The notes under the pieces are model-generated. The model was not told where the DNA came from. It saw only the letters and a list, made by a program, of their open reading frames with translations, and searched no databases. Below, one piece after another: positions 4,215 through 15,851 of a stretch of DNA of 43,792 nt; within the stretch, counting starts at the first letter, position 1; every line of letters begins with the position of its first letter. This DNA is from an uncultured Croceitalea sp. (GTDB lineage Bacteria; Bacteroidota; Bacteroidia; Flavobacteriales; Flavobacteriaceae). Location of the stretch: the NCBI GenBank assembly GCA_937959125.1, contig CALGQU010000021.1:1-43792 (forward strand), written 5' to 3'. The translations under genes were made by a program, and so were the position numbers.

Positions 4215-4368
4215 GAATCTTTGGGATAGCTTAAATTTGTAAGAATAATTTTACTAATTTAAACGAAGGAAAATTACCATTCATCTATGGCAATCGCCTA
4301 TTAATCTTTGTAAACCAAAAATTTGCGTTTGGATGTTCCATCTTTGTAATGTATAAAAATCCCTGGTC

Positions 4369-4767
4369 ATGAACGTACTTTTTATAGAAGATGATATGAT
4401 CGAGACCATGAAGTTGCAACGTGCAATCTCTAAGTTCGACACAAAACACCAAATTACCGAAGCTAAAAACGGAGAAGAAGCATTGGATATTTTAAAGAAT
4501 ACCCCACTTCCGGATATCATCCTATTGGACTTGAACATGCCCCGTATGAGCGGTATTGAATTTTTGAATATCCTTAAAGGGGACGAACGCTTAAAGTATC
4601 TTCCTACAATTATTTTGACCACATCTGAAAATAGGACCGATTTATTGAAATGTTTTGAGATAGGGATCGCGGGCTATATCATAAAACCTTTAAAATACGA
4701 GGATTACGAAAAAAAACTTAATAAAGTTTTTGAATATTGGGAGGTTAGCGAGCTTGTCAAAGCCTAA
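4369..4767 (+). CDS. Single-domain response regulator (CheY-like REC)
   Basis: FIEDD...IILLDLNMPRMSG...ILTTSEN...YIIKPLKYEDY; all REC catalytic positions present, no output domain. Confidence 0.93.
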   Translation: MNVLFIEDDMIETMKLQRAISKFDTKHQITEAKNGEEALDILKNTPLPDIILLDLNMPRMSGIEFLNILKGDERLKYLPTIILTTSENRTDLLKCFEIGIAGYIIKPLKYEDYEKKLNKVFEYWEVSELVKA

Positions 4768-4776
4768 CAAAATTCT

Positions 4777-4822
4777 GCGTTTCACAACAATATTTTTATA
4801 TTAAGTAGTATAATTCCTACTT
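4777..4822 (+). promoter_or_regulatory. Shared two-part upstream motif, copy A (before H-NOX)
   Basis: GCGTTTCACAACAAT (4777-4791) then AAGTAG-N8-CTACTT (4803-4822); near-identical arrangement at 14176-14221. Confidence 0.7.
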
Positions 4823-4844
4823 TTAAATCATAATATTCTGTATT

Positions 4845-5387
4845 ATGAAAGGAATTGTATTCACCGAATTTTTGGAAATGGTAGAGGCTGAACATGGTCT
4901 TGAAACCGTAGATGCCATTATTGAAGAATCCGATCTTCCCTCGGAAGGTGCGTATACTTCGGTAGGGACTTATGACTTTAATGAAATGGTCCTCCTTTTG
5001 ACCTCTTTAAGTGAAAAAACCAAGCTTTCCATTAAGGATTTGCAGTATTCCTTTGGACATTACCTTTTTAACGGTCTGGTAAAATCCCACCCAGAAGTGG
5101 TAAGTAGCTATAAAAATCCATTAGGGTTATTGTATAGCATAGAGGACCACATACACGTACATGTAAAAAAACTGTATCCAGAAGCGGAGCTGCCCACCTT
5201 TAAGATTTTAGAAAAAACGGAAAAAACGCTTTCTATGATCTACTGTTCCTCACGTGGACTTTATGCATTGGCCCATGGCCTGATCGTAAAGACCTTTGAG
5301 CATTTTTCAAAGGGGGTAAAGGTAGAGTACAAATTGTTGAATGAAGCAGGAACAGAAGTCCAATTTGAGATCCATCAAAATGAATAG
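4845..5387 (+). CDS. H-NOX heme nitric-oxide-binding protein
   Basis: MKGIVFTEFLEMVE...; H104 in DHIHVHVKKLYP, P117 in ELPTF, Y133-C-S135-S-R137. H-to-P spacing of 13 and H-to-Y spacing of 29 match canonical H102/P115/Y131-S133-R135. Confidence 0.93.
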   Translation: MKGIVFTEFLEMVEAEHGLETVDAIIEESDLPSEGAYTSVGTYDFNEMVLLLTSLSEKTKLSIKDLQYSFGHYLFNGLVKSHPEVVSSYKNPLGLLYSIEDHIHVHVKKLYPEAELPTFKILEKTEKTLSMIYCSSRGLYALAHGLIVKTFEHFSKGVKVEYKLLNEAGTEVQFEIHQNE

Positions 5388-7740
5388 TACGGATATCGCA
5401 CTTTTGGAACGTGCTTTGGAGCGGGAGAAAAAAGCAAGGAAGGCGGCCGAAAGGCTGTTGGAAAATAAATCCAAGGAACTTTATGATGCCTCATTACACC
5501 TTAAAGAAGCCAATGGAAAATTGGAAGCCCTATTGCAAAAGAAGGATACCAATGTAGAAAGTGCTTTTGTGAACATTATAGATCCCTATGTGGTTATGGA
5601 TATGACCACTAAGGTTGTCAATATGAACATAAGTGCCCGTGAATTCTTGGGGTTTGACCACACCAAGCAAGATGTAATGCTTGCAGAACTGGTTCATAAC
5701 GATTATGTGGAGTATACGGCGGAATCTTTTCAAACCCTGCTACAAGTAGGGATTTTAAAGAATTACAATGTTCGTATACAAACCAAGCATGGCACAGAAA
5801 AGTATGTAAACATCAATGCCAGCTTAATATATGATGAAAAAGGCAAACCCATAGCCGCACAAGGGGTAATTAGGGATATTACCAGAGAAGAAGAAATAAA
5901 ACAATTGCTGGAGCAACAAAAGCGTCAGCAAGATATTATCGTGGAAAACTCATCTTTGGGCATTCTTCTTATTGTGGACAACCATATTGTAAAGGCCAAC
6001 CAAACCTTTACGGCACTCATGGGATATTCAGAGCTGGAACTAAAAAAAGCGACCCTGGATGATATTTCCACCATAGAAGATATTAGCCTTTACCAAGACA
6101 TTTTAGAGGATAATGAACGTGGGGAATCGGATAAATTTGTCATTATTAGGAAATTCCATAAGAAAGACGGTACTACCATTTACGGCAAAACATCGGTAAG
6201 TACGGTACGTAATGAAAAAGGGGCTATCGATTATAAGGTGGCCATGATCGATGATATTACCCATGACAAGATATCCGAGGAAAAATTACGTGCCTCGGAA
6301 GAGCGGCTTACTTCCCTTATTAGTAACCTACAGAACGGTATTCTTTTAGAGGATGAAAACCGGAAAATGGTGTTGACCAACCAGAAATTCTGTGATTTGT
6401 TCCATATTCCCTTGGCACCAGAAAAACTAAAAAGCGTGAATTGTGAACGCTCTTTGGAAAAATACAAACATCTTTTTATGGATCCGGAACATACCGTAAA
6501 AAGAATAAACCACGTCTTGCAAAAAAGGGAACTCGCCCTTTCCGATGAACTGGAATTGGTAGATGGGAGAACCTTTGAGCGCGATTATATCCCGTTGTTC
6601 ATAGATGATGTATATAAAGGCCATCTATGGAGTTATACCGATGTTTCCCTAAAAAAGAACTATCGTAAAAACCTGGAAAAACAAAAGGAAAAGTACGGTA
6701 GCATCATTGCCAATATGAATCTGGGTTTGGTAGAAATAGGGTCCAAGAACGAAATTTTATCAGTAAACAACAGGTATTCCGAAATGATCGGGATACATGT
6801 GGATGATCTTGTGGGCAGGAACGTCATGGAGGTGATGAATTTAGATGAGGGGAACAGGAAAAGAATACAGGAACAATTTGAAAAACGAAGAAACAACAAC
6901 ACGGACTCTTATGAGGTAGCGATCCGTTTGCATACCGGTGAAACCCGTCATTGGTTGATCAGTGCCGCACCACGTTATGATGAGGCAGGAAAAGTCATTG
7001 GTTCCATAGGTGTCCATTTGGATATTACCAAACAGAAAGAATTGGAGATTCAAAAACAAGCTTTGGTCAATGAATTGGAAGAAAGCAATAAGGGCTTGCA
7101 AGAATATGCGCATATTGTTTCCCATGACCTTAAATCGCCTTTGCGCAGTGTGAGTGCTTTGGCTACTTGGTTGTATGAGGATTATAAGGATAAATTGGAT
7201 GATGGTGGTAAATATAACCTGCAGATGATGGTGGAGAAAGTAGAGGGAATGGACAAACTTATTACGGGTATTTTAAAGTATTCCACCATAAACAATAAAG
7301 CCCTGGACAATACGGATGTGGATGTCAATGAAATCATTAACAGTATTGAGGAAATCATCTTTATACCCGATCATGTACGTATAAGAAGGACCAATAAATT
7401 ACCGGTAATCCGTGCAGATAAAACCAAGATCCACCAACTGTTTCAAAACTTCATTAGCAATGCCGTAGTAAATATTGATAAAAAGGACGGTTTGGTGGAA
7501 ATAGCATATGAAGAAACCGCTACCCATTGGCAGTTTAGCATAAAAGATAACGGGGTAGGAATCCCAAAGGAATACCATGAGAAAATCTTTCAAATATTCC
7601 AGTCCATTGGAAATAATGAACGTTCCACGGGAATAGGACTCTCCATAGTCAAAAAAATCATCGATATCTATCACGGAAGCATTTGGTTAGAAAGTGAAAT
7701 AGGTGTGGGAACAACCTTTTACTTCACCCTTAAAAAATAA
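5380..7740 (+). CDS. Multi-PAS sensor histidine kinase, HnoK-like candidate
   Basis: About four PAS repeats, YAHIVSHDLKSPLRS H-box, HQLFQNFISNAVVN and DNGVGIPKEY HATPase motifs; starts inside the H-NOX tail (ATG 5380). Confidence 0.9.
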   Translation: MNSTDIALLERALEREKKARKAAERLLENKSKELYDASLHLKEANGKLEALLQKKDTNVESAFVNIIDPYVVMDMTTKVVNMNISAREFLGFDHTKQDVMLAELVHNDYVEYTAESFQTLLQVGILKNYNVRIQTKHGTEKYVNINASLIYDEKGKPIAAQGVIRDITREEEIKQLLEQQKRQQDIIVENSSLGILLIVDNHIVKANQTFTALMGYSELELKKATLDDISTIEDISLYQDILEDNERGESDKFVIIRKFHKKDGTTIYGKTSVSTVRNEKGAIDYKVAMIDDITHDKISEEKLRASEERLTSLISNLQNGILLEDENRKMVLTNQKFCDLFHIPLAPEKLKSVNCERSLEKYKHLFMDPEHTVKRINHVLQKRELALSDELELVDGRTFERDYIPLFIDDVYKGHLWSYTDVSLKKNYRKNLEKQKEKYGSIIANMNLGLVEIGSKNEILSVNNRYSEMIGIHVDDLVGRNVMEVMNLDEGNRKRIQEQFEKRRNNNTDSYEVAIRLHTGETRHWLISAAPRYDEAGKVIGSIGVHLDITKQKELEIQKQALVNELEESNKGLQEYAHIVSHDLKSPLRSVSALATWLYEDYKDKLDDGGKYNLQMMVEKVEGMDKLITGILKYSTINNKALDNTDVDVNEIINSIEEIIFIPDHVRIRRTNKLPVIRADKTKIHQLFQNFISNAVVNIDKKDGLVEIAYEETATHWQFSIKDNGVGIPKEYHEKIFQIFQSIGNNERSTGIGLSIVKKIIDIYHGSIWLESEIGVGTTFYFTLKK

Positions 7741-7744
7741 GTGT

Positions 7745-8869
7745 ATGAAAATTAATCAGGCAAAAAAAATAAAAGGCGTATGGGAGTTGGACCATGTCCA
7801 TACATTGAAAAAACCCTTAGTTCTTGTCTTTGGGGACCGTTTTCTTCTAGAAGACCCATCGATCTATGGTGAGGTACGTAAAATGTACCCCCATGGCGAG
7901 CTGGTTTTTGGCTCTACTTCTGGTGAGATTTTAGGGGAAGAAGTCCTAGATGATACCATTACCGTAACGGCCATTGAATTTGCCAAGACAAGCTATCATA
8001 TTGTCAGTAGGAATTTTATGGATTATGAAAATATTGAGGATATGGGTAGGGCCATATCCAAAGAATTCGACAAAGAGGGCTTACGCCATTTGTTTGTGGT
8101 GTCCGATGGCAGTTTTGTAAATGGTAGCGGATTAATAGAAGGTTTGGAAGCAGATGATGATTTTACATCCTCTATTACCGGAGGGCTATGTGGTGATGGG
8201 GCGCGTTTTGAAAAAACCTTGGCCTCCCATAATGAAAACCCCAAACAGGGAGAGGTGGTATCCATAGGTTTTTATGGATCGTCTTTAGAGGTCTCTTACG
8301 CCAATTATGGTGGTTGGACCCCTTTTGGACCGGAACGGACCATAACACGTTCCGTGGGCAATGTGCTTTATGAAATTGATGGTCAACCCGCATTGGACCT
8401 GTACAAAACATATTTAGGGGAAAAAGCGGCAGAATTGCCGCAAGCAGCATTGTTATACCCATTGCGGGTGCAGCAATCAGAAGATTCCCAAGCTTTGGTG
8501 CGTACCATTTTAAATATTGATGAAGAACAGAATTCCATGATACTTGCCGGTGACGTACCTGTGAATTCCAAAGTACAGTTGATGATGTCCACCATGGATG
8601 ATATTGCCAATGGGGCCTGCACTGCCGCAAAACAAGCTATGGAAGGCCGCAATAAATCGCCAGAACTGGCATTGTTGGTCAGTTGTGTTGGCAGAAAATT
8701 AGTGCTGGCCGGTAGGGTAGAGGAAGAAGTAGAGGAAGTTGTGGACATCGTTGGTCAACAGGCAAAGGTCACCGGGTTTTATTCCTATGGGGAAATGGCC
8801 CCTTTTACCGGGAGCAAAGCATGTCAATTGCATAACCAGACCATGACATTAACCTTAATGAGTGAATAG
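7745..8869 (+). CDS. FIST N- and C-domain protein (NosP-family candidate)
   Basis: PLVLVFGDRFLLEDPSIYGEVRKMYPHGELVFGSTSGEIL...GGLCGDGARF...LALLVSCVGRKLVLAGRVEEEVEEV; FIST architecture; likely ATG at 7745. Confidence 0.87.
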   Translation: MKINQAKKIKGVWELDHVHTLKKPLVLVFGDRFLLEDPSIYGEVRKMYPHGELVFGSTSGEILGEEVLDDTITVTAIEFAKTSYHIVSRNFMDYENIEDMGRAISKEFDKEGLRHLFVVSDGSFVNGSGLIEGLEADDDFTSSITGGLCGDGARFEKTLASHNENPKQGEVVSIGFYGSSLEVSYANYGGWTPFGPERTITRSVGNVLYEIDGQPALDLYKTYLGEKAAELPQAALLYPLRVQQSEDSQALVRTILNIDEEQNSMILAGDVPVNSKVQLMMSTMDDIANGACTAAKQAMEGRNKSPELALLVSCVGRKLVLAGRVEEEVEEVVDIVGQQAKVTGFYSYGEMAPFTGSKACQLHNQTMTLTLMSE

Positions 8870-9919
8870 ATGCATAGGTTGTTAGGACGACAAATAAAAA
8901 ACTATCTCCCGGAGGAACTAAAGGACCACCCGGGTATTGCTGCTTTTTTTGAGGCCGTGGACAAGTCCTATTCAGATTATGACGAAAAATTACGAATGAT
9001 CCAACGTGCCACGACATTAAGTTCCAAAGAGCTTTATGAAGCCAACAAAAGGCTAAATAAAGAAACGGAGAGCCAACGAAAGGTGCTGGACACCCTAAGC
9101 AAAGCAGTGATGTACATGGAGAACAAATCCAGTAAAAGGCAATCTGAACTTGGTTTTGACCCGCAGCGTTTGGTAGAAAACATAGAAAACCAAACCTATA
9201 AAATTGTGGAGATGACGGCGGAAAAGGATTCGCTGCTACGCAATTTGGAACAGCAAAACGAGTCTTTGAACAATTATGCCCATATGGTCTCGCACGATCT
9301 TAAATCACCTATACGGAACATCCATTCCTTGGTGAGCTGGGTGCTGGAAGATGGCCATGCGGAAATTAAGGAAGGCAACAAAAATAGCTTTGATCTTATC
9401 TTTCAAAATTTGGCCAAAATGGACAATCTCATTGACGGCATTTTACGCCATGCGACCATTGATTCCCTAGAAGAGGAAATGGTCAATGTGGATTTAAATA
9501 TGTTGATACGGGAGATCGAGCATACCATGTACGTGCCATCGACCATTAAGATTCTTATCAAAGGCCAATTGCCAGAGCTGTATACTGGAAAATACCGTTT
9601 GGAACAGTTGTTCAAAAATTTGATCATGAACGCGGTAAACGCCCTTGAAGATGAAGACGAAGGATTTATAGTAATTGAAGCCCAAGAAGAAGGGAACAAT
9701 TGGCTATTTAGCATAAAGGACAATGGAAAAGGAATTCCACCACACCTACAGACTGGGATTTTTGGTATGTTCAAAAAGCTGGAAAACAAAGCCAATACCA
9801 CCGGAATAGGTTTAGCCTTGGTAAAAAAAATCATCAATTACTACAAAGGCGATATCTGGCTCTCTTCTGAAGAGGGTATAGGAACCACATTTTTCTTTAC
9901 CATTAAAACCCAAATATAA
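8870..9919 (+). CDS. Sensor histidine kinase without PAS/TM sensor domain, predicted partner of the FIST protein
   Basis: Coiled-coil N-terminus RATTLSSKELYEANKRLNKE, NYAHMVSHDLKSPIRNIHSL H-box, DNGKGIPPHLQTGIFGMF, TTGIGLALVKKII. Confidence 0.9.
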   Translation: MHRLLGRQIKNYLPEELKDHPGIAAFFEAVDKSYSDYDEKLRMIQRATTLSSKELYEANKRLNKETESQRKVLDTLSKAVMYMENKSSKRQSELGFDPQRLVENIENQTYKIVEMTAEKDSLLRNLEQQNESLNNYAHMVSHDLKSPIRNIHSLVSWVLEDGHAEIKEGNKNSFDLIFQNLAKMDNLIDGILRHATIDSLEEEMVNVDLNMLIREIEHTMYVPSTIKILIKGQLPELYTGKYRLEQLFKNLIMNAVNALEDEDEGFIVIEAQEEGNNWLFSIKDNGKGIPPHLQTGIFGMFKKLENKANTTGIGLALVKKIINYYKGDIWLSSEEGIGTTFFFTIKTQI

Positions 9920-10248
9920 TGACTGAAACACCAAATCTTAACTATATCAAAGAAGTTGCGGGAGGCAATGAGGAATTCGAAAAGAAATTTCTGAATATCA
10001 TTCAAGATGAATTCCCTAGGGAAAAGGAAGAGTACCTCAAATTTTTAGGTTCCGGTGAGCTGGAGGAGGCCGGAAAAGTAGTCCATAAGATAAAGCACAA
10101 GCTGGGCATATTAAGTATGAACGGCAGCTATCACATGGCCATACAATATGAAGAAGATTTAAAATATGGGGAGATGAAATTAAAGGAAGACTTTTTTAGG
10201 ATACTCCAGACAGTTGAAGCATTCATTTTTAAAAATTACGTATCGTGA
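9919..10248 (+). CDS. Free-standing HPt phosphotransfer protein
   Basis: 109 aa helical; GELEEAGKVVHKIKHKLGILSM resembles the HPt AHxLKGxxxxxG motif. Confidence 0.8.
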   Translation: MTETPNLNYIKEVAGGNEEFEKKFLNIIQDEFPREKEEYLKFLGSGELEEAGKVVHKIKHKLGILSMNGSYHMAIQYEEDLKYGEMKLKEDFFRILQTVEAFIFKNYVS

Positions 10249-10967
10249 AGTGTATTATCGTAGATGACGAAGCAACGGCCAGGGCCATAGTTGCCGGGTT
10301 GTGCGAAAGCAGTCCAGAACTGGAGGTTGTTGCACAGTTCCCAAACGCAGTGGAGGCACTCAAGTTTTTAAGCCAACATACGGTGGATGTTATTTTTTTG
10401 GACATCCATATGCCCATTTTAAAAGGAGTGGATTTTATCCAAACCTTAAAAAACCCACCAAAAGTGGTTTTTACGACCTCGGATACGGAGTTTGCGGCAG
10501 AAGCCTATTCCTATGAGTTTATCGTTGACTATTTGGTTAAGCCCATCAACCCGGAACGCTTTCAAAAAACCTTGGTAAAACTCAAAAACGCATCGCGTTT
10601 GCTTAGGGCGAGTGAGGATAGTACCACCTTGGCAAATAACGATACCTCCGTTAGGGAGCAATATCTCTATATTAATATTGATAGACGGTTGATAAAATTG
10701 AACTTTAAGGATATCCTATTGATCCAAGCGCAGGGCGATTATATTGAAATAAAGACCGTTGATGGGACCCACCGGGTACATTCTACCTTAAAAAAAATAA
10801 AGGACAAGCTGCCACAGACCGTATTTATGCAAATCCACCGATCATATATTATCAACTATACAAAAATCATTGATATTCAAGACAATAGTGTATTGATAGA
10901 TAGGAGCGTTATTCCCATAAGTAGGTCGCAACGCCCTAACCTTATGGAAAGACTCAATTTACTTTAA
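10245..10967 (+). CDS. LytTR-family response regulator
   Basis: REC: IIVDDE, VIFLDIHMPILKG, VVFTTSDTEFAAEAY, YLVKPI; LytTR: DILLIQAQGDYIEIKTVDGTHRVHSTLKKIKDKLP...MQIHRSYIINYTKI; GTG start overlapping the HPt stop. Confidence 0.95.
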   Translation: MKCIIVDDEATARAIVAGLCESSPELEVVAQFPNAVEALKFLSQHTVDVIFLDIHMPILKGVDFIQTLKNPPKVVFTTSDTEFAAEAYSYEFIVDYLVKPINPERFQKTLVKLKNASRLLRASEDSTTLANNDTSVREQYLYINIDRRLIKLNFKDILLIQAQGDYIEIKTVDGTHRVHSTLKKIKDKLPQTVFMQIHRSYIINYTKIIDIQDNSVLIDRSVIPISRSQRPNLMERLNLL

Positions 10968-10998
10968 TAACCAATTATAACTTTAAATTAGGAAAACT

Positions 10999-11301
10999 AT
11001 GGCCTTAGAAATTAGGGAAAATCATGGACTTTTTGAAATTAGCGGAAGCGTAACCACCCATAACCTGGGAGTACTCAAGGTATACTTTGATTCGGTGTTC
11101 GAGTCACACGAAATTGTAGTACTCAGTATTGAAAAAGTGGTGGAAATGGATGCTACCGCCGCACTTTTTTTTGAAAAACTTTACCGTGAAGTAGCAGAGA
11201 ATCAAAAAGTACTGTCCATTGTTGGAAGGGAGAATATTGATATTGCGGATATAATGAGCCTAACGGGGACAGATTATATTTTAAGTTCAGATAGAGTTTA
11301 A
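10999..11301 (+). CDS. STAS-domain (anti-sigma-factor antagonist-like) protein
   Basis: MALEIRENHGLFEISGSVTTHNLGVLKVYFDSVF...EIVVLSIEKVVEMDATAALFFEKLY; STAS-like strand/helix pattern. Confidence 0.65.
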   Translation: MALEIRENHGLFEISGSVTTHNLGVLKVYFDSVFESHEIVVLSIEKVVEMDATAALFFEKLYREVAENQKVLSIVGRENIDIADIMSLTGTDYILSSDRV

Positions 11302-11308
11302 AACCATT

Positions 11309-12154
11309 ATGATGCACGTAACTTTTTATAAAAAATACTTTGATCGTACGCCAAGTGCATTGGATACCGAGGAACTTTCCCGTTTGACCCATTATTTTGG
11401 ATTACTGTCCAAAGTAGCGCATCCGGTAGCCAGTTTGATCGTACCCGTATACCGGGCAAAACAGCACCTATTGGCCCATCTTTTTTCGCTTTCCTATCTA
11501 AAGACCATAATTCCGTATGAAGTGATCTTTGTCGATAATAACGCGGATAGGGAAACCTTGGATATTTTGGCGCAAGTGGGGGCAAAAGTGGTAAAGGAAA
11601 AGAGGCAAGGCATAACCCATGCCAGACAGCGCGGTTTAGAAGCCGCGCGCGGACAGATTATCTGTACCATGGATCCAGATTCTATTTATGATCCTTATTA
11701 CATTGATAAAATGGTATTGCCCTTTTTTGAGGAAGAAGACTTGGTCCTATGCTATTCCGTGTCCAAGAGTTATATCCATGATTTTGGTTTGACACCAAAA
11801 ATGAACCTTAGGAATTGGTTAAAAGTGCGTTATTTTAAATGGAAACTTTCGCAAAGTTTTATCAACAAAATAAAGTTCGTTAGGGCTGTGACCATGTCCT
11901 ATAGAAAAGAAGCCTTGGCACCAATTGGCTACCCCATAGATTTAAAAGCGGTATCTGGGTGCGATGATGGCATGGTGGCCATGCATTTGAACAATTTAGG
12001 TGTTTTTAAATATGTTTCCGTAGATGTCTATACGGCTTTGCCACCACCTAGGGAACCTGGAAAACCCTTTCCGTTCTGTAATGAACGTTTCTATAAGAAA
12101 TCCTCCATTATGGAAGAGACCATAAAAGCCTTGGAAATAGAAACGCTTACCTAG
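11309..12154 (+). CDS. Glycosyltransferase family 2
   Basis: SLIVPVYRAKQHLLAHLFSL...YEVIFVDNNADRETLDIL...ICTMDPDSIYDPYYI. Confidence 0.88.
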   Translation: MMHVTFYKKYFDRTPSALDTEELSRLTHYFGLLSKVAHPVASLIVPVYRAKQHLLAHLFSLSYLKTIIPYEVIFVDNNADRETLDILAQVGAKVVKEKRQGITHARQRGLEAARGQIICTMDPDSIYDPYYIDKMVLPFFEEEDLVLCYSVSKSYIHDFGLTPKMNLRNWLKVRYFKWKLSQSFINKIKFVRAVTMSYRKEALAPIGYPIDLKAVSGCDDGMVAMHLNNLGVFKYVSVDVYTALPPPREPGKPFPFCNERFYKKSSIMEETIKALEIETLT

Positions 12155-14621: not shown

Positions 14622-15851
14622 ATGGAAGTTTTAACACAACAGACAACACAAATTCTCTATTTGGGAACCAATACCCGTTTGGCCCAAGAATTCCACAGAA
14701 ATGATGGACATGTTGAGGTGTACATGGTAGAAAACGTCTCGCAAGCATTAAAATGGCTACATAACCAAAGCGATTTTAAAGATGGAAAATGGCAAGGGAT
14801 CAACAATAATCTTGATGCTTTTCTATGTGAAGAAAGTTTGTCCAACAATAGGGTTCTTGAGCTAAAATCCTATGTGGAACAAACCTTTGATCCCGCAGAA
14901 AAAATCCCGTTTTTATTGGTAGGGAATACGCTGAGCAAAGCGGACAAGGTTATGGCCATGGAAAATGGGTTTGACGATTTTTTTGTGCACCCGGTAGATT
15001 TCAAAAAATTGCTGGATAGGGTCAATTTTTTAAAGGAATTAAAGTCCAACCTTAGAAAACAAAAGATACGTTCCAGTAGTGGACAGCTTAAAAAGTATAA
15101 AATAGGTTTTTGGAAGCGCAGTTTTGATGTCCTTTTGGCAGGTTCCGTCTTGTTGCTTGCATCCCCATTTTTACTGCTGGTCATACCGGCCATACGCTTA
15201 GAGTCCAAAGGAAAGGTATACTATATCTCCAAAAGGGTAGGAACAGGTTATAAAATATTCAACTTCTTAAAGTTGCGATCCATGTACCCAGATGCGGACA
15301 AACGCTTAAAGGAGTTTGAGCATTTGAACCAATATGCGCATGAAGATGCGGAGCCTATTGAAATCGTACCACAAGATACAGATGATAACCCCATGGGAAC
15401 CATGCTTATTGGTGATGATTCCCCCGTGGATGAGGTAGCACACAACCAGAAGCGAAAAGCGAGTGCCAAAAGTGCATTCATAAAATTTGATAATGACCCC
15501 CGTATTACCAAAGTGGGAAAGATCATAAGAAAGCTGAGTATAGATGAGCTGCCCCAATTGATTAATGTGCTCAAGGGGGATATGTCCATAGTGGGGAACA
15601 GGCCTTTACCGTTGTACGAAGCAGAAATGTTGACTACGGATGAGTGGACGGAACGTTTTAACGGCCCTGCAGGGATTACGGGACTTTGGCAAGTGGAAGC
15701 ACGGGGGCGTAGTTCAAAAATGTCTACGGAAGAGCGTAAACAGTTGGATGTAAAATACGTAGGGTATGCCAATGGTAAGTATGCCTTTTTAATTGATATG
15801 TGGATTATTTTAAGAACGTTCAAAGCGGTTTTTCAAAAAGAAAATGTTTAG
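14622..15851 (+). CDS. REC-like domain fused to a polyprenyl-phosphate hexose-1-phosphate transferase (bacterial sugar transferase)
   Basis: N-term ILYLGTNTRLAQEF...LDAFLCEESL...IPFLLVGNTLSKADKVMAMENGFDDFFVHPVDFKKLLDRV (degenerate REC); C-term FWKRSFDVLLAGSVLLLASP...FNFLKLRSMYPDAD...DPRITKVGKIIRKLSIDELPQLINVLKGDMSIVGNRPLP...GITGLWQV. Confidence 0.92.
   Translation: MEVLTQQTTQILYLGTNTRLAQEFHRNDGHVEVYMVENVSQALKWLHNQSDFKDGKWQGINNNLDAFLCEESLSNNRVLELKSYVEQTFDPAEKIPFLLVGNTLSKADKVMAMENGFDDFFVHPVDFKKLLDRVNFLKELKSNLRKQKIRSSSGQLKKYKIGFWKRSFDVLLAGSVLLLASPFLLLVIPAIRLESKGKVYYISKRVGTGYKIFNFLKLRSMYPDADKRLKEFEHLNQYAHEDAEPIEIVPQDTDDNPMGTMLIGDDSPVDEVAHNQKRKASAKSAFIKFDNDPRITKVGKIIRKLSIDELPQLINVLKGDMSIVGNRPLPLYEAEMLTTDEWTERFNGPAGITGLWQVEARGRSSKMSTEERKQLDVKYVGYANGKYAFLIDMWIILRTFKAVFQKENV

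Follow-up and report, generated by a model that had tools for sequence, protein, structure and literature searches.

How do bacteria with next to no cyclic di-GMP (c-di-GMP) connect nitric oxide (NO) to the making of their matrix? Control of biofilm by NO has mostly been explained via c-di-GMP; the Flavobacteriaceae, abundant in the sea and in fresh water, are nearly without this messenger, which has left their way of linking NO to matrix to be explained. We approached it through a stretch of 43,792 nucleotides (hereafter, the window), which is one contig (CALGQU010000021.1) of the 3.5-Mb draft genome of an uncultured Croceitalea sp., and for which Croceivirga, Allomuricauda and Flagellimonas are the closest named relatives as judged at this locus. 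Here, a predicted NO sensor of the H-NOX type is encoded in a single-strand run of genes together with two histidine kinases (HKs), a FIST-domain protein, the modules of a phosphorelay and a LytTR-type response regulator (RR), next to an exopolysaccharide (EPS) locus. Taken as a whole, we consider it probable that this run represents a modular, self-regulated phosphorelay of the Flavobacteriaceae, passing information on NO to matrix genes by transcription and without c-di-GMP. The locus comprises the following features:

4277-4314, + strand: predicted LytTR operator, with half 1 (CCATTCATCTATGGCAA) at 4277-4293 and a weak half 2 (CTATTAATCTTTGTAAA) at 4298-4314, at +21
4369-4767, + strand: stand-alone REC (CheY-like; PF00072, E 1.8e-21), acceptor Asp54; likely phosphorelay intermediate
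4845-5387, + strand: predicted H-NOX nitric-oxide sensor (PF07700, E 1.5e-37), with His104, Pro117 and Y133-x-S135-x-R137
5380-7740, + strand: histidine kinase 1, with 3-4 PAS domains, HisKA and HATPase, without a receiver
7745-8869, + strand: FIST protein (FIST PF08495, E 5.7e-41; FIST_C PF10442, E 3.7e-34), apparently not NosP
8870-9919, + strand: histidine kinase 2 (HK2), without PAS or receiver, with its own N-terminal FIST-associated segment
9919-10248, + strand: HPt phosphotransfer protein, His56, identified via its orthologue
10245-10967, + strand: REC-LytTR response regulator (PF04397, E 8.4e-20; PF00072), Asp53; predicted output transcription factor
10999-11301, + strand: STAS-domain protein (PF01740)
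11309-12154, + strand: GT2 glycosyltransferase (PF00535), the final gene of the run
14255-36580, mainly + strand with a few genes opposite: adjoining EPS locus, the presumed physiological target

Translation and Pfam agreed for every gene named in a first-pass annotation of the same DNA, and the gene content and order that it had proposed—with overlaps or tiny gaps between neighbours—held up. On a single strand, the order reads REC–H-NOX–PAS kinase–FIST–kinase–HPt–LytTR regulator–STAS–GT2, with distances of -8 bp (H-NOX/kinase 1), +4 bp (kinase 1/FIST), 0 bp (FIST/kinase 2), -1 bp (kinase 2/HPt), -4 bp (HPt/LytTR), +31 bp (LytTR/STAS) and +7 bp (STAS/GT2). The interval assigned to the operon, 4369-12154, does contain the genes listed for it, but H-NOX is not the first of them: positions 4369-4767 encode the stand-alone REC, which had been overlooked and is separated from H-NOX by 77 bp. 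The placing of each sensor beside its own kinase, with all modules of a relay present, proved right. Both a REC and a LytTR domain were found in the regulator (PF00072, PF04397); the HPt protein of the window has no Pfam match itself, and its Kordia orthologue exceeds the Hpt cut-off (30.7 versus 24.6 bits).

Neither kinase of the window has a receiver according to Pfam and, for this reason, the stand-alone REC is likely the intermediate of a multistep phosphorelay (HK-REC-HPt-RR), the four modules of which all carry invariant acceptors: in the operon alignments, Asp54 of REC is kept in 122/122 sequences, His56 of HPt in 124/124 and Asp53 of the LytTR regulator in 124/124. Phosphate would travel in the order HK-REC-HPt-LytTR, as suggested by hybrids of other families in which HK is followed by REC and then HPt within one protein. 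In these families, H-NOX or, separately, FIST precedes a single HK-REC-HPt hybrid beside an NtrC-type regulator; the hybrid systems thus join the modules found here into one chain, and either sensor can take the position of the other.

The H-NOX protein of the window scored 129.5 bits against the HNOB domain (curated cut-off, 25.5), and its characteristic residues are kept among relatives (His104, 97/98; Pro117, 98/98; Tyr133, 98/98; Ser135, 96/98; Arg137, 90/98). With the proximal His, the Pro and the YxSxR motif in place, it is, judged by sequence, a bona fide heme-type H-NOX. The nearest solved structure is the H-NOX of Kordia algicida (PDB 6BDE/6BDD, E 1e-55), and the sequence of these entries, compared by inspection and past two extra start residues, is that of the H-NOX in the dual operon of K. 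algicida OT-1 (locus L161). We found no paper in the open-access literature describing this operon.

To what extent is the arrangement shared? Our survey covered 200 Flavobacteriaceae genomes, with gene maps for 120 loci. H-NOX occurred in 78 genomes, FIST of the window's class in 51 and both in 47 (Fisher p 3e-20). At 40 loci, a FIST gene follows H-NOX on the same strand at a distance of 2.4-3.6 kb, a co-occurrence far beyond chance; the distances step by ~385 bp, which we read as a varying number of PAS domains in kinase 1. The layout, which looked like a distinct circuit in the first-pass annotation, is not peculiar to the window genome: the module occurs across the family, with or without the FIST pair. 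The form REC-H-NOX-HK-FIST-HK2-HPt-LytTR is found in 36/78 H-NOX loci (with examples in K. algicida OT-1, Cellulophaga, Maribacter, Flavobacterium, Winogradskyella, Algibacter, Zunongwangia and Leeuwenhoekiella), and REC-H-NOX-HK-HPt-LytTR in 27/78. In view of these two main forms, the core REC–[H-NOX]–kinase–HPt–LytTR is conserved and has one fixed site at which about half of the loci carry the FIST-kinase pair as an optional insert. The stand-alone REC precedes H-NOX in 75 of the 78 mapped loci. FIST and HK2 are nearly always present or missing as a pair, and the FIST label switches at least 11 times along well-supported branches of the core-gene tree; the tree alone does not decide between repeated loss and repeated gain, and loss is the more likely because the distances of the FIST pair follow those of the rest of the operon. 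Sensors can also be absent altogether. H-NOX is missing with FIST retained at loci L134, L169 and L174, and both are missing at L246 (6261-9783) and L247 (6497-10000), the latter sharing the window's gene neighbourhood. These two operons, which read REC-kinase-HPt-LytTR, keep the operator described below; the core of the relay evidently answers to an input of another kind.

The regions upstream of REC share a 17-bp motif, CCATTCGTC[T/G]ACACTTA, mostly in tandem. One word pair was common to 61 loci, with shuffles reaching 26, and the motif was found in 107/122 upstream regions (at most 5 mismatches of 15); at 12 bits or more, it was present in 78/88 operons with FIST and in 29/34 without. Where two copies stand in tandem (64 pairs), all but two pairs (62) are spaced by exactly 21 bp. 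LytTR regulators bind repeats of 9-11 nt with spacers of 11-13 nt (PMC4847170), and AlgR binds CCGTTCGTC (PMC4064291), a core from which the half-site CCATTCGTC differs by one base. The 21-bp spacing thus fits LytTR binding rules, and we predict that the motif is an operator. Across the 200 genomes, 98 sites were found versus 8 for the reversed pattern; in genomes with H-NOX, the operon promoter accounts for 42 sites, and another 25 fall within 30 kb of it, all of them downstream of the operon at a distance of 3.5-23 kb. A site was present in 53/83 genomes with the LytTR orthologue, compared with 9/117 without it (odds ratio 21, p 9e-18), and it follows LytTR: 6/10 genomes with LytTR but no H-NOX carry it, versus 0/5 with H-NOX but no LytTR. 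In genome G173, where the operon has no LytTR gene, the motif stands at a second cluster, REC-LytTR-flippase-glycosyltransferase. The regulator recognising these sites is, we infer, LytTR. Separately, one Flavobacterium lineage carries strong operator matches opposite to the operon strand (L107:1771, 2053, 2593; L136:5021), with no downstream gene assigned.

Which genes could such an operator control? In the locus scan, the motif preceded the operon in 113 loci, and its other targets were genes for a DUF6923/T9SS secreted protein (42 loci), STAS (17), glycosyltransferase (10), REC or REC-glycosyltransferase (9) and flippase (7); a small number of further targets encode Wzc-like, OEP, UDP-glucose/GDP-mannose dehydrogenase or mannose-phosphate nucleotidyltransferase proteins. 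These motifs mostly lie 40-220 bp before the start. In other genera, STAS is the first gene of an EPS cluster and has its own operator; in the window lineage it has probably joined the operon, with GT2, and is co-transcribed with the relay. No GGDEF protein was detected in the window's own genome—extending to the whole genome what had been noted for the window—and only 2/120 relatives had one over the cut-off; a transcriptional output, not one through c-di-GMP, is therefore expected. Two further observations concern the targets. The commonest one after the operon itself, a DUF6923 + Por_Secre_tail protein of ~860 aa (L047:1341-3953, L236:6237-8837, L241:2887-5487 and relatives), is probably a secreted surface or matrix protein. 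In several genera, receiver domains fused to glycosyltransferases are encoded directly behind the operator (L129:17843-19009, L248:5009-6196, L249:6604-7785, L235:6320-7507), and these enzymes might be under direct control by phosphorylation.

The circuit that we propose would operate as follows. Binding of NO by H-NOX would alter the activity of kinase 1, and the ligand of FIST—possibly NO, though not demonstrably—would alter that of kinase 2. Both receiver-less kinases would feed the common stand-alone REC and, from there, HPt and the LytTR regulator, which would bind direct repeats of CCATTCGTC-type half-sites, spaced by 21 bp, before its own operon and, in most relatives, also before genes encoding STAS, glycosyltransferase, flippase and secreted matrix proteins. 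In this way, NO would adjust the production of exopolysaccharide and surface protein via transcription, with no part for c-di-GMP.

Several observations weigh against this reading. The window operator, 75 bp ahead of the REC start, takes the same position as the motif in relatives and scored a weak 10.4 bits on a position weight matrix built from relatives; its half 2 (CTATTAATCTTTGTAAA, 4298-4314) was identified by eye only. A scan of the window for further operators returned only the operon promoter site and none before the EPS locus. The output in the window genome therefore rests on the co-transcribed STAS and GT2 genes and on the relatives, and the transcriptional polysaccharide output suggested by the first-pass annotation is backed where relatives carry the LytTR-type operator before EPS and secreted-protein genes, less so at the window itself. 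Relays without H-NOX carry the same operator, so NO is not the sole possible input of kinase 1, and ~8% of the genomes that have neither LytTR nor H-NOX still have a site. The similarity of the two kinases, considered below, is paralogy and not proof of a common partner. Finally, nirK is not associated with H-NOX, and denitrification as the source of NO was rejected as a general explanation, with nirK over the cut-off in 37/200 genomes (12/78 with H-NOX and 25/122 without) and none in the window's own genome. At ~9 loci, nitrate-assimilation-type genes for molybdopterin nitrate-reductase-like and rubredoxin/nitrite-sulfite-reductase-like proteins lie upstream on the same strand (e.g., L045:1-2994, L009:11513-12949, L246:9911-11350), a possible link to nitrogen oxides.

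Would both kinases indeed act on a single relay? The alternative is that two independent two-component systems merely share an operon, with kinase 2 serving another partner and the relay serving kinase 1 only—an arrangement with which the optional nature of the FIST-kinase 2 pair and the 27 loci where the core works without it would be compatible. Yet the operon encodes no other RR for kinase 2, which in every case sits between kinase 1 and HPt and varies in step with HPt, REC and LytTR. Moreover, both kinases carry the SHDLKSP motif, their DHp helices follow one consensus, YAH(I/M)VSHDLKSPLRSI...W, and, in a search of the window's own genome, the best match of kinase 2 was kinase 1 (197 bits; next, 68); neither kinase has a nearer paralogue there than the other. 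We hence regard independent systems as improbable and favour convergence of the two kinases on the common REC. Co-evolution was discarded as proof of pairing: H-NOX tracks kinase 1 best (distance correlation, r 0.71), but FIST tracks kinase 1 and kinase 2 alike (0.68 and 0.69). At two Flavobacterium-like loci, L104 (genome G446) and L105 (genome G408), a third kinase of 430-452 aa without a recognised sensor lies between kinase 2 and HPt.

The harder question is what the FIST protein senses. The NosP proteins in the literature are of the FIST type and bind both heme and NO (PMC12570481), and the first-pass annotation had called the protein of the window NosP-like. Its score on NCBIfam NF041558, however, was 35.5 bits versus an equivalog cut-off of 450; likewise, HK2 was rejected as a NahK/ErcS-family kinase (56.6 bits versus a cut-off of 400, the match running via the generic kinase core only), and its N-terminus differs from that of NahK. 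No NosP over the cut-off was found in 160 Flavobacteriaceae genomes, and FIST homologues in other phyla scored at most 96 bits on the NosP model. In Azospirillum lipoferum, the two types are encoded apart from each other: an annotated NosP-NahK pair and, on another plasmid, a FIST-kinase pair. The FIST protein of the latter is 39% identical to that of the window and its kinase shares the HK2 N-terminus, whereas the annotated NosP is only 19% identical and the model of the HK2 N-terminus had no match in the annotated NahK. The sole invariant His of the FIST group is His363 (LHNQTMT); the His of the annotated Azospirillum NosP is one residue out of register with it. No sequence relative of FIST was found in the PDB, and an AlphaFold2 model (pLDDT 93.7) best matched human FBXO22 and also cyclic amide hydrolases; a heme fold was rejected, the structure search with the model having returned no heme protein. 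As far as sequence can tell, this is a large FIST group distinct from NosP.

The notion of two NO sensors is accordingly a guess. Were FIST a heme protein like NosP, the relay would read NO twice, for instance with differing affinities; the 40 loci of co-localisation with H-NOX, the architectural slot of H-NOX that FIST fills in hybrid systems, the heme and NO binding of published NosP proteins and the one invariant His all point that way. Set against the low NosP score here and throughout the family, the divergence from the annotated NosP and its kinase, the coexistence of both pairs in Azospirillum and a closest solved fold in human FBXO22, with no heme protein among the matches, these points leave the idea doubtful. 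We lean, if slightly, towards FIST sensing another small molecule—a metabolite, free heme or some other compound—so that the relay would integrate NO with that signal. All the evidence against NosP membership counts in its favour, as do the loss or retention of FIST-kinase 2 independently of H-NOX and the stand-alone pairs of FIST and hybrid kinase, which have no NO genes alongside; on the other side, there is no ligand candidate, and the strict co-localisation with H-NOX could mean that the signal is the same. Tandem arrays of 3-4 lower-scoring FIST genes unlinked to H-NOX (G101:C1:3102815-3107010, G069:C15:41545-45456, G440:C4:176544-180944) were excluded and treated as another system.

How does the proposed relay compare with systems already described? 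In Vibrio, H-NOX/HqsK (V. harveyi, V. parahaemolyticus) and NosP/VpsS (V. cholerae) act on the HPt protein LuxU; there, as here, an NO sensor would control an associated kinase, the signal runs via HPt to a transcriptional regulator, and sensors of different types supply one kind of relay (PMC7595309, PMC8738867). The Vibrio HPt and LuxO are, however, shared with quorum sensing, whereas here the sensor, both kinases, a separate REC, HPt and LytTR form one self-contained operon with its own predicted operator. H-NOX/HnoK of Shewanella and Legionella likewise combines H-NOX and a kinase with a biofilm output, and Legionella Hnox2 adjoins a kinase and a CheY-like REC as in the window (PMC11237717); the outputs in those genera are GGDEF/EAL or HD-GYP enzymes, while here the output is LytTR and GGDEF is absent. 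NosP/NahK of Pseudomonas, Legionella and Burkholderia also places a FIST protein beside a soluble kinase, but the pair studied here is under both family cut-offs, has another kinase N-terminus and comes with no c-di-GMP regulator. The K. algicida H-NOX (6BDD/6BDE), known as an isolated structure, belongs to the same dual operon type. AlgR resembles the regulator in being a REC-LytTR protein with a core site one base from the predicted half-site and with polysaccharide gene targets (PMC4064291); it is fed by AlgZ, whereas the regulator here would be fed by a phosphorelay with HPt and has strict tandem 21-bp sites predicted for it. A 2022 review lists FIST among the gene neighbours of one H-NOX group and describes no Bacteroidota operon or output (PMC8738867), and the open-access literature yielded no paper that links H-NOX to a LytTR output in Bacteroidota.

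New here are the 17-bp motif, in tandem at 21 bp before the operon and matrix genes, and the proposed H-NOX signaling by way of a modular REC-HPt-LytTR relay, whose operator and matrix regulon are predicted. On a bolder form of this reading we are evenly divided: the REC-kinase-HPt-LytTR core, with its dedicated operator and EPS/T9SS regulon, may be a plug-in chassis to which lineages repeatedly add or from which they drop sensors (none, H-NOX, H-NOX plus FIST-kinase, or FIST-kinase alone), with NO and the FIST ligand integrated at one HPt to set matrix in bacteria without c-di-GMP, and with the FIST branch as a new sensor class distinct from NosP. What the analysis provides is a complete candidate circuit—a named operator sequence, a short target list and, in K. 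algicida, a structurally known H-NOX in the same operon—which makes the question directly testable by DNA-binding and phosphotransfer assays, while pairs of operons with and without FIST offer natural controls for the FIST branch.

Downstream of the operon, the EPS locus encodes a REC, a sugar transferase, OEP, a Wzc-like protein, a flippase, a polymerase, glycosyltransferases, a UDP-glucose dehydrogenase and rhamnose genes; the N-terminus of the sugar transferase (14622-15851) is receiver-like.

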